Source: Aceticella autotrophica
GTDB lineage: Bacteria > Bacillota > Thermoanaerobacteria > Thermoanaerobacterales > Thermoanaerobacteraceae
Direction of reading: 5' to 3'
NCBI RefSeq assembly: GCF_017357865.1
Contig: NZ_CP060096.1
Coordinates: 620,001 to 684,000, forward strand
DNA length: 64,000 nucleotides
This document shows, piece by piece, positions 9,863-12,669 of the stretch. The notes under the pieces were generated by a model. That model was not told the DNA's origin and made no database searches. It worked only from the letters and a program-made list of their open reading frames with translations. The translations under genes were made by a program, and so were the position numbers. Positions within the stretch are counted from its first letter, which is position 1. Each line of letters begins with the position of its first letter.

Positions 9863-9891
9863 TTGACTTTAAATTAAAAAGAGGATATAAT
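9863..9891 (+). promoter_or_regulatory. Strong sigma-A promoter of cooS-cooF
   Basis: TTGACT (9863-9868), a 17-base spacer, and a perfect TATAAT (9886-9891). Transcription should start about 30 bases before the cooS start codon. Confidence 0.8.
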
Positions 9892-9932
9892 TTATTTGTA
9901 AATAATAAATATTAAAAAGGAGTTGTTATAAT

Positions 9933-11816
9933 ATGAGTGATAATTACATTTATTCTGCTGAAAAGGTTATTGATGACCTTTCTCGAAAGCCTGGTTTTGT
10001 TGACACAGCCATAAAACGTTGGGAAAAGCGTGATCCGAAATGCGGTTTTGGCTACAAAGGTATTTGCTGCAGGTTATGTTCTAATGGACCTTGTAGAATA
10101 ACCCCAACTCAGCCGGTAGGGATTTGTGGTGCTACAGCAGATACAATAGTTGCACGCAATCTTTTGAGGGCAATAGCGGCAGGTACTTCTTGCTATATTC
10201 ATCATTGTCGTAATGCAGCTAATACATTACTTTCTGCAGCTGAAGGCAAATCATCTTATACCATTAAAGATGAGGAAAAGCTAAAAAGATATGCTCAGAA
10301 AATAGGCATTAATACCAATAAAGATGTAAAAAGAATTGCTTATGAATTTGCCACAAAAGTATTAAATGACCTTTCTAAGCCTTACACAGAAAAATCTGAA
10401 CTTGTTTATAAATTATCTTTGCCTGCAAGGGTTTCGACTTGGGAAAAACTTAATATATTGCCTGGTGGTGTTAATGAAGAAATCATTGCGGCACTTACTA
10501 AGACATCTACCAATTTGAATAGTGACCCTGTTGATATGGCATTGCATTGTTTAAGACTTGGTATCATAACAGGTATATATGGTCTTGAATTAACTTGCAT
10601 AATGCAGGACATACTGCTTGGAAGTCCAAAGATTACCGCGACCCATTCTAATTTTGGTGTTATTGATCAGGGCTATATTAATCTTGCAACTATTGGAGGA
10701 CATCAACAGGTTGTTTCAAATCGTATTTTGGAATTGGCAAGTAACAAGGAATGGGTTAAAAAGGCTCAGGAAGCCGGAGCTAAAGGTTTTAAAATATATG
10801 GTGTAACCTGCGTTGGACAGGATTATGAAATGAGATGTGCTTCTGATAAAAACAGCGCATTTGGCGGATATGTCGGTAATAATTTTACACAGGAATATAT
10901 CTTAGGTACAGGAGCCATAGACCTTGTATTCTCAGAGTTCAACTGCACCTTACCTGGTATTGAACCAATATGTAAAGAATACTTAGTAAAACAGATATGC
11001 CTTGATGATGTAGCAAAAAAAGTGGGAGCAGACCTCTATCAATTCCAGCCTGAAAAAGCTGATGAGTATGCTGCTATTACACTTAATGAGGCTATAAAAG
11101 CTTATAAAAATAGGCGCGGAAAAGTTAAAATAGATGTTCCTGCTGAGAAAACCCCGGCTATGACGGGATTCACTGAAGACAGCATTAAAGGAGCTCTGGG
11201 TGGTTCATGGAAACCTCTTATTGATTTAATAGTTAAAGGCGATATAAAGGGTGTAGCAGGCGTTGTCGGCTGCTCTAATATGGCTGCAAAGGGTCATGGT
11301 ATATATGGCGTGGAATTGACCAAAGAGCTCATTAAAAGAGATATTTTAGTACTTGGAAGCGGCTGCGTAGGAGGAAATCTTGAGAATGCGGGACTTTATG
11401 GGTTAGGAAGCATCGAACTGGCGGGTCCTAAGCTTAAAGAAGTATGCCGTAAATTAAACATACCTCCTGTTTTAAATATAGGTCCTTGTCTTTCTATAGG
11501 AAGAATTCATATAATAGCAGAGGAAATTGCTGAAGTATTAAAGGTGGATGTACCACAAATACCAGTAGTTGCTTCTGCACCTCAATGGCTTGAAGAACAA
11601 GCTTTAGCCGATGGAACCTTCGGTGTTGTTCTTGGACTTGACCTGCTTCTTGGAACACCGCCTTTTGTAACAGGAAGCAACTTAATAACAGAACTTCTTA
11701 CATCAAAATTAAAGGATATGGTAGGTGCACGGTTTATAATAGAAGCTGATCCTATCCTTGGAGCGGATGCTATGGAAAGTTCTATAATGGAAAGGCGCAA
11801 ACTGCTTAATATATAA
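9933..11816 (+). CDS. cooS: Anaerobic carbon-monoxide dehydrogenase catalytic subunit, divergent
   Basis: A 627-residue Ni-Fe-S protein of the CooS family, which normally oxidises CO to CO2. The N-terminal cluster motif is at residues 37-54 (Cys37, 45, 46, 49, 54). C-cluster cysteines aligned by eye to Carboxydothermus CODH II are all present: Cys293, 338, 447, 478 and 519. However, Lys563 of the model enzyme is Gln556 here (EEQALADG), and the channel histidines 93, 99 and 102 are Tyr88, Asn94 and Asn97. The HGH motif reads GGH (His257). Ligands are therefore kept but acid-base residues are lost, so CO oxidation is uncertain. AAGGAG precedes the ATG. cooF follows after 38 bases. Confidence 0.93.
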   Translation: MSDNYIYSAEKVIDDLSRKPGFVDTAIKRWEKRDPKCGFGYKGICCRLCSNGPCRITPTQPVGICGATADTIVARNLLRAIAAGTSCYIHHCRNAANTLLSAAEGKSSYTIKDEEKLKRYAQKIGINTNKDVKRIAYEFATKVLNDLSKPYTEKSELVYKLSLPARVSTWEKLNILPGGVNEEIIAALTKTSTNLNSDPVDMALHCLRLGIITGIYGLELTCIMQDILLGSPKITATHSNFGVIDQGYINLATIGGHQQVVSNRILELASNKEWVKKAQEAGAKGFKIYGVTCVGQDYEMRCASDKNSAFGGYVGNNFTQEYILGTGAIDLVFSEFNCTLPGIEPICKEYLVKQICLDDVAKKVGADLYQFQPEKADEYAAITLNEAIKAYKNRRGKVKIDVPAEKTPAMTGFTEDSIKGALGGSWKPLIDLIVKGDIKGVAGVVGCSNMAAKGHGIYGVELTKELIKRDILVLGSGCVGGNLENAGLYGLGSIELAGPKLKEVCRKLNIPPVLNIGPCLSIGRIHIIAEEIAEVLKVDVPQIPVVASAPQWLEEQALADGTFGVVLGLDLLLGTPPFVTGSNLITELLTSKLKDMVGARFIIEADPILGADAMESSIMERRKLLNI

Positions 11817-11854
11817 TCGGAAAATATAATTAGAAGATATTGGAGGAATGAAAT

Positions 11855-12385
11855 ATGGATGATAAAGGTGGCACGAAATATATCTTGGCAGATGTAAAAA
11901 AATGTCTCGGATGCCGCTGTTGCGAACAAGCCTGCGCTGATGCTAATGGAAACCGCCCATATTGGGATCTTTTAGAGTCTGGAATTCCTTTAAGCCCAAA
12001 TATAAATATTTTATATATTTTTTTACAGGATAAAAATTATCCTATTATGGCTCAGGCAGTTTGCAGACAATGTGAAGATGCCCCTTGTGTTAAAATATGT
12101 CCGGTAAGGGCTATAAGTGTAAATCCGGATGGTGTAAAAATAATTGATAAACGGCGTTGTATTGGATGCCATAGTTGCTCAATTGTATGTCCTTTTGGTG
12201 CAGTATATATTCCGGATAAACATGCTGTTGCCACAAAGTGCACACTTTGTATAGAAAGAAAAGGTGCGGAAGGGCAACCAGCTTGTATAGAGGCATGTCC
12301 AAATGGTGCTTTAAAATTAGTTGATACAAAGGAAATCGGACAGGAAAAAGTAAAAAAAATTGTTTATGACACATTATCTGATTAA
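11855..12385 (+). CDS. cooF: CooF-like 4Fe-4S electron-transfer protein
   Basis: A 176-residue polyferredoxin expected to carry electrons to or from CooS. Four clusters can be read: Cys17, 20, 23, 27; Cys70, 73, 78, 82; Cys102, 105, 108, 112; and Cys129, 132, 144, 148. Cluster spacing matches the CooF/HycB/DmsB-type subunits. The protein is soluble, without Tat signal or membrane anchor. GGAGGAATG precedes the start. It is the second gene of a two-gene unit ended by the hairpin at 12418-12467; no hydrogenase or CooC gene is nearby. Confidence 0.9.
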   Translation: MDDKGGTKYILADVKKCLGCRCCEQACADANGNRPYWDLLESGIPLSPNINILYIFLQDKNYPIMAQAVCRQCEDAPCVKICPVRAISVNPDGVKIIDKRRCIGCHSCSIVCPFGAVYIPDKHAVATKCTLCIERKGAEGQPACIEACPNGALKLVDTKEIGQEKVKKIVYDTLSD

Positions 12386-12417
12386 AAAGAAGATTTATTA
12401 ATTTATATAGACGGGAG

Positions 12418-12467
12418 TGATAGATAGACTGCATAGTATTCTATGTATGTTCTATCTATCATTTTTG
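12418..12467 (+). terminator. Terminator after cooF
   Basis: An 11-pair perfect outer stem, TGATAGATAGA with TCTATCTATCA, holds an inner CATAG/CTATG stem and is followed by TTTTT. Confidence 0.8.
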
Positions 12468-12669
12468 TATATATTGAAATAACTTTATTTAAGAAGTATA
12501 ATAATATGTAATTTATAGGTTTAAAATATTAAATAATAACAATTAGAAAATCAGGTGATTTTATGAAATATTTAATTAAAAATAAAATAAACATCCTGTC
12601 ATAATTACTATCTTTTATTAATATTTATATCATTAGAAGGAACACATGATGGAAGGAGAGAGTAAATAC

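Follow-up and report, generated by a model that had tools for sequence, protein, structure and literature searches.

Ni-containing carbon monoxide dehydrogenases (CODHs) fall into clades A to G, and every group of clade C combines a complete C-cluster with replacement of the acid-base His/Lys pair by Tyr/Gln (Table 2 in Inoue 2019, PMC6344411). His-tagged CooS of T. kivui (TKV_c08080, TkCODH-I) was co-purified with CooF1 and exhibited activities of 13.9 U/mg for CO:methyl viologen and 0.5 U/mg for CO:ferredoxin (Jain et al., PMC8683389). These values are at least 15-fold below those of T. kivui AcsAB, for which 213.9 U/mg and 111.5 U/mg respectively were determined, and deletion of cooS abolished growth of T. 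kivui on CO (PMC8683389). The enzyme was placed in clade C by a 2026 survey, with Aceticella its only close relative (PMC13056359), and the paper on Aceticella autotrophica 3443-3Ac names ACETAC_02795 as cooS, 96% identical to the characterised T. kivui CooS (PMC10213532). This gene lies in the window analysed here, a stretch of 64,000 nucleotides to which the coordinates below refer. A sequence-only reading had described its product as a CooS homologue with intact metal ligands and missing catalytic residues, whose chemistry might be altered.

The cooS-cooF transcription unit

The cooS reading frame (9933-11816, forward strand) is unbroken, and the following features were assigned to the unit.

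9863-9891, forward strand: cooSF promoter, TTGACT-17 bp-TATAAT, 11/12 match to consensus
9917-9922, forward strand: cooS ribosome-binding site AAGGAG, from sequence reading
9933-11816, forward strand: cooS (ACETAC_02795), catalytic subunit of a clade C Ni,Fe carbon monoxide dehydrogenase, 627 aa; assigned by TIGR01702, tree and AlphaFold model
11842-11846, forward strand: cooF ribosome-binding site GGAGG, from sequence reading
11855-12385, forward strand: cooF, encoding a 176 aa polyferredoxin partner that has 17 Cys and four 4-Cys motifs; T. kivui CooF1 orthologue
12412-12468, forward strand: likely intrinsic terminator of cooSF, an AT-rich hairpin followed by a T run; -31.5 kcal/mol, z-score -8 (energy and z-score for 12405-12475 against shuffles)

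CooS matched TIGR01702 with 760.8 bits against a cut-off of 478, spanning profile positions 17-620 of 621, and Pfam Prismane also matched the protein nearly end to end. The AlphaFold model, which is metal-free, had a pLDDT of 87.7 and yielded TM scores of 0.91-0.95 to solved CODHs. The cooF start lies 38 bp beyond the cooS stop codon, and the pairing with a four-cluster CooF described from the sequence was borne out, the 17 Cys of CooF including motifs at C17/20/23/27, 70/73/78/82, 102/105/108/112 and 129/132/144/148. The gene for the CooF1 orthologue adjoins cooS in T. kivui as well. cooS and its four-cluster ferredoxin partner are taken to be transcribed together. The description of the gene as strongly promoted held only in part. 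The consensus promoter is present and a TTGACT box also lies upstream of T. kivui cooS, but in a region this rich in AT chance alone predicts 13.2 promoter-like sites, and 14 were found; the site at 9863-9891 ties for the best match among the 14 and is correctly placed for cooS.

Neither a CooC gene nor a gene for an FNOR-type oxidoreductase adjoins Aceticella cooS, and the nearest Aceticella homologue of the C. ljungdahlii FNOR (35% identity) is encoded elsewhere in the genome. A CooF-like ORF was present within 1.5 kb downstream in 61 of 88 clade C loci. The clade C locus of C. ljungdahlii also includes the FNOR-type oxidoreductase, a neighbour that is common in clade C and not defining of it. 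The second CODH of Aceticella is AcsA, which has the canonical His/Lys pair; its gene adjoins a cooC-like gene and has a HypB-like gene in its vicinity.

Active-site residues and clade membership

Residues were mapped by alignment to the 1su6 chain of Carboxydothermus CODH-II, using its own numbering. C37/C45 of Aceticella CooS correspond to the D-cluster ligands Cys39/47, and C46/C49/C54/C65 to the B-cluster ligands Cys48/51/56/70. All C-cluster ligands are kept, with H257, C293, C338, C447, C478 and C519 at the positions of His261, Cys295, 333, 446, 476 and 526, in agreement with the earlier claim of a counterpart for every C-cluster Cys. Features of the active site, with their occurrence in the sequence sets described below, were as follows.

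10194-10196, forward strand: Tyr88, at the position of the acid-base catalyst His93; all 88 clade C sequences have Tyr and all 15 canonical ones His
10569-10571, forward strand: Thr213, at the position of Asp219; Thr in 100% of clade C, Asp in 100% of canonical sequences
10695-10703, forward strand: GGH, Gly255-Gly256-His257, with His257 the C-cluster ligand His261 (1su6 alignment)
10806-10811, forward strand: Thr292-Cys293, at Cys294-Cys295; ligand Cys295 kept and Cys294 lost, Thr292 in 88/88 clade C
10944-10946, forward strand: C-cluster ligand Cys338 (Cys333), 1su6 alignment
11271-11273, forward strand: C-cluster ligand Cys447 (Cys446), 1su6 alignment
11364-11366, forward strand: C-cluster ligand Cys478 (Cys476), 1su6 alignment
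11487-11489, forward strand: C-cluster ligand Cys519 (Cys526), 1su6 alignment
11598-11600, forward strand: Gln556, occupying the catalytic Lys563 position; all 88 clade C sequences have Gln, and Lys is found in all 15 canonical and all 24 CooS-V type sequences
11610-11612, forward strand: Asp560, at the position of Ile567, a second-shell residue of the Ni site; 87 of the 88 clade C and all 24 CooS-V type sequences have Asp, all 15 canonical ones Ile

The reported replacement of Lys563 by Gln556 was confirmed, as was the change of HGH to GGH, with G255 at the His259 position. Misalignment of the Lys site was rejected, since no gap occurs at this point of the 1su6 alignment and the AcsA encoded by the same genome has Lys in that column. 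A Lys and His residues at the equivalent sites had been named as evidence that would tell against the sequence-only reading; the structure-numbered alignment shows neither, with Tyr88 and Gln556 in their place. Aceticella CooS consequently lacks the canonical acid-base site of clades A-1, E and F, having neither His93 nor Lys563. The claim that the channel residues His93, His99 and His102 had become Tyr88, Asn94 and Asn97 was correct in its letters, but positions 99 and 102 vary among active CODHs, being Asp/Ser and Glu/Leu in several canonical enzymes, and His96 is retained as H91. Because of this, the diagnostic losses are limited to His93, Lys563 and His259. Three further pocket changes had not been remarked upon: T213 for Asp219, T292 for Cys294 and D560 for Ile567.

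For comparison, 122 CODH sequences were drawn from whole genomes and named contigs and supplemented by five PDB sequences. Fifteen, including 6elq, 6t7j and 6ytt, possess the canonical His/Lys set. Tyr/Gln with Cys295 was found in 88, among them Aceticella, T. kivui, C. ljungdahlii and C. carboxidivorans, and Tyr/Lys with Glu295 in 24, CooS-V among them. In a midpoint-rooted tree of 57 sequences, prepared with four diagnostic columns masked, each of the three sets formed one side of a branch with support of 100; the Tyr/Gln set was represented by 31 sampled sequences. The type II D-cluster, with C37 as the first Cys and therefore no N-terminal Cys motif, and a Y88-H257 stretch without the 4-Cys insertion are the traits of structural group C-2. 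On these traits and the tree, Aceticella CooS is assigned to clade C, group C-2. A CODH tree had been proposed, and with it a check on whether Gln556, Tyr88 and GGH are conserved throughout a clade. Tyr and Gln are so conserved, without exception, whereas at the His259 position 83 of the 88 clade C sequences have Thr, three have Ile and only two Gly. What had been taken for an oddity of one protein, the missing catalytic residues, thus defines the whole of clade C and was tabulated in 2019 (PMC6344411). The Tyr/Gln substitution is real yet already known, and does not represent a new type of enzyme.

Decay of the gene was also rejected as an explanation, as comparison with T. kivui cooS gave a dN/dS of 0.047 and the substitutions are fixed clade-wide. 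The gene is under purifying selection and the substitutions are not the result of chance, Tyr88 and Gln556 occurring together in every clade C sequence. In a genome of the same class, a remnant of a clade C cooS was found at G003:C1:421028-421243, comprising only the last 72 residues (54% identical) and apparently representing gene loss.

The Tyr/Lys set raises the alternative that Aceticella CooS is of the hybrid-cluster type, with an Fe-S-O rather than a Ni-Fe-S cluster as in CooS-V (CODH-V) and chemistry of the hydroxylamine or NO type. Tyr at 93 and Asp at 567 are shared with the CooS-V group, and no hybrid cluster protein (HCP) gene over the TIGR01703 cut-off is present in the whole Aceticella genome. 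The defining change of Cys295 to Glu is absent, however, Cys293 being kept in all clade C sequences, and a CooS-V/HCP type was rejected on this ground. Moreover, clade C has lost the Lys that the CooS-V group keeps, the two are separate clades with full support, and the T. kivui orthologue oxidises CO whereas CODH-V has neither a C-cluster nor CODH activity. An enzyme of the hybrid-cluster type is therefore highly improbable. T. kivui has an HCP gene over the same cut-off, as do the other genomes of the class with few exceptions. In addition to its intact copy, T. kivui carries pieces of a second HCP gene (G018:C1:1836126-1836732).

Aceticella and T. kivui CooS form a deep two-member branch, the first to split within clade C in the midpoint-rooted tree; their separate placement is also remarked upon in PMC13056359. 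Among the clade C sequences examined, these two alone have a one-residue insertion before GGH (residues 252-255). The branch also retains the canonical His96 and an Asn at position 240, both lost in the rest of the clade. Because of the insertion and these retained residues, the sole purified clade C enzyme, itself from this branch, may not be typical of the clade.

The pocket around the C-cluster

Comparison of conserved columns between clade C and the canonical set revealed 33 cleanly differing positions. When only columns with conservation in each of the two groups were counted, differences occurred at 14 of the 22 that lie no more than four residues from a C-cluster ligand and at 19 of the 85 remaining ones (p = 5e-4). 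A first scoring against all positions gave p of about 1e-8 and was repeated in this form since conserved columns crowd the cluster. It follows from this clustering near the ligands that the clade C pocket has been rebuilt as one unit. The changes comprise the replacement of His93 and Lys563, Asp219 to Thr, Cys294 to Thr, Ser525 to Pro, His522 to Asn and Ile567 to Asp. Ile567 is taken here to lie above the open Ni coordination site, and Asp219 is presumed to pair with Lys563. The Moorella equivalent of Cys294, Cys316, is reportedly required. The pattern may be read as the exchange of a charged Lys/Asp/His arrangement for neutral groups and a single carboxylate near Ni. Single CODH-II mutants at 93, 96, 295, 563 and 567 are named in PDB titles, and none of the CODH-II mutants in the PDB has the clade C combination. 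A limited literature search found no description of Asp567, Thr219 and Thr294 as part of the signature.

Asp at the Ile567 position (codon 560, 11610-11612) is shared by clade C and the CooS-V group; outside the CODH sets this position is Val in HCP and Ile in one CdhA. As the two groups are separate in the tree, the residue is either an ancient trait common to both or a product of convergence. One hypothesis is that Asp560 might perform acid-base work. Taken further, clade C could employ a different acid-base design in which Lys563, Asp219, His93 and Cys294 are dispensable and Asp560, next to the open Ni site, transfers protons or gates ligands, yielding an enzyme that oxidises CO slowly and may tolerate O2 better; this proposal is tentative and its full form rather doubtful. 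Trp552 of Aceticella CooS occupies the position of Ala559, where the A559W substitution is labelled in the PDB as an O2-tolerant tunnel redesign.

CO oxidation and physiological role

Sequence, residue mapping, clade, conservation and operon were determined directly in this analysis. CO oxidation, binding of CooF and the need for cooS during growth on CO were demonstrated by others for the T. kivui orthologue, and the T. kivui cooS sequence used for comparison exactly matches two gene-internal PCR primers of Jain et al. The two CooS proteins exhibit 27 scattered differences, all of them outside the cluster ligands and the pocket positions considered above. Since T. kivui CooS is active and identical at every ligand and pocket position, an enzyme with the Tyr/Gln/GGH set oxidises CO, albeit slowly. 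The activity of the T. kivui CooS-CooF1 complex lends support to the earlier suggestions of a cofactor-bearing enzyme and of slow CO oxidation. Normal CO oxidation activity had been named as evidence against an altered enzyme, and the activity of the orthologue is real but low. For the further suggestions, that it turns over a different small molecule or serves in redox or sensing, no positive evidence was found here, and slow CO oxidation makes them unnecessary.

The 2026 survey left clade C activity undecided, on the argument that the T. kivui enzyme may come from a CO-evolved, possibly mutated strain (PMC13056359). The tagged cooS, amplified from T. kivui genomic DNA, was introduced on a plasmid into T. 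kivui DSM 2030 and expressed in cells grown on glucose; a CO-adapted strain was used for the cooS deletion, and the strain providing the PCR template is unnamed in the methods (PMC8683389). Genes of CO metabolism are not directly affected by the mutations that three isolates of a different CO-evolved line have in common (PMC12056078). Aceticella, a separate organism, has active-site residues identical to those of T. kivui CooS. Given the use of DSM 2030 and glucose, the nature of those mutations and the same residues in Aceticella, the assayed CooS was likely, though not certainly, wild type, and the caveat of the survey is weakened.

The locus is best explained, with considerable confidence, as encoding a clade C CODH with its CooF, possessing normal clusters and oxidising CO slowly with ferredoxin as electron acceptor, with the rebuilt pocket as the cause of the low rate. 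By analogy with T. kivui, Aceticella CooS most likely converts CO to CO2 with a normal complement of B-, D- and C-clusters, and electrons would pass from CooS through CooF to ferredoxin, and on to Ech hydrogenase and the Wood-Ljungdahl pathway. The His93/Lys563 pair, which serves with Asp219 as proton relay and in stabilising CO2, has given way to neutral Tyr/Gln with Thr, and the changes of Cys294 to Thr and hydrophobic Ile567 to Asp complete the rebuilding. Turnover may be slow because the catalytic pocket was rebuilt, and the same activity, electron route and cause of the low rate probably apply to the Aceticella enzyme. A route from CooS through ferredoxin to Ech was inferred for the strain (Frolov 2023, PMC10213532), which grows on CO at up to 50% of the gas phase after stepwise adaptation (PMC10213532). 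That growth could be based on AcsA instead of CooS.

Two other roles were weighed against the T. kivui data. CooS might be a redox or CO/CO2-responsive regulator on a CODH scaffold, its CO turnover a side activity: redox-modulatory or regulatory roles have been proposed for clade C on the basis of the regulators and oxidoreductases encoded nearby (PMC13056359), growth on H2/CO2 or acetate formation improves when cooS is knocked out in C. autoethanogenum and T. kivui, and cooS is down-regulated on CO in T. kivui CO-1. Such a sensor is unlikely, as no regulator adjoins cooS in Aceticella or T. kivui, and in the latter cooS is needed for growth on CO and CO:ferredoxin activity is measurable. Alternatively, the enzyme may run mainly towards CO, as a CO2 reductase and electron sink disposing of excess reduced ferredoxin. 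A C. autoethanogenum acsA mutant keeping cooS1/cooS2 made CO mixotrophically and showed no CO oxidation (PMC4895105), but the clade C enzyme of that organism is only about 52% identical (C. ljungdahlii as proxy) and sits with an FNOR-type oxidoreductase of the kind that does not adjoin Aceticella cooS, whereas assays of the T. kivui orthologue measured CO oxidation, and T. kivui cannot grow on CO without it. This role is accordingly considered quite improbable.

The remaining interest is mechanistic, residing in a coherent rewiring of five residues and a conserved Asp at position 567. A natural CODH without the Lys and His regarded as essential in the model enzymes offers a test of how protons move in CO/CO2 conversion, and residues 93, 219, 294, 563 and 567 provide a precise set for swaps in both directions.

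Compared with known systems, Aceticella CooS shares the fold of C. hydrogenoformans CODH-II (1su6; TM 0.92-0.93) and all of its metal ligands, but is 34% identical and has His93, Asp219, Cys294, Lys563 and Ile567 all replaced. It resembles C. hydrogenoformans CooS-V/CODH-V (clade D, group D-1) in Tyr93, Asp567 and the CODH fold (TM 0.93-0.95), whereas CooS-V itself has Glu for Cys295, Lys563 kept, a type III D-cluster and an Fe-S-O cluster, and no CO activity. With clade C group C-2 it shares the type II D-cluster, full C-cluster ligands, Tyr/Gln and the absence of extra N-terminal or inserted Cys motifs. The Aceticella/T. kivui branch is 52-55% identical to the rest of clade C, from which Aceticella CooS differs in its one-residue insertion and in GGH where most have TGH; its unit contains CooF only, lacking the adjoining FNOR-type oxidoreductase. 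The closest system is T. kivui CooS, 96% identical and likewise encoded in a two-gene cooS-cooF unit, with Tyr88, His91, Asn94, Asn97, Thr213, GGH, Thr292, Gln556 and Asp560 all shared; the gene upstream of cooS is folC-like in T. kivui and metA-like in Aceticella.
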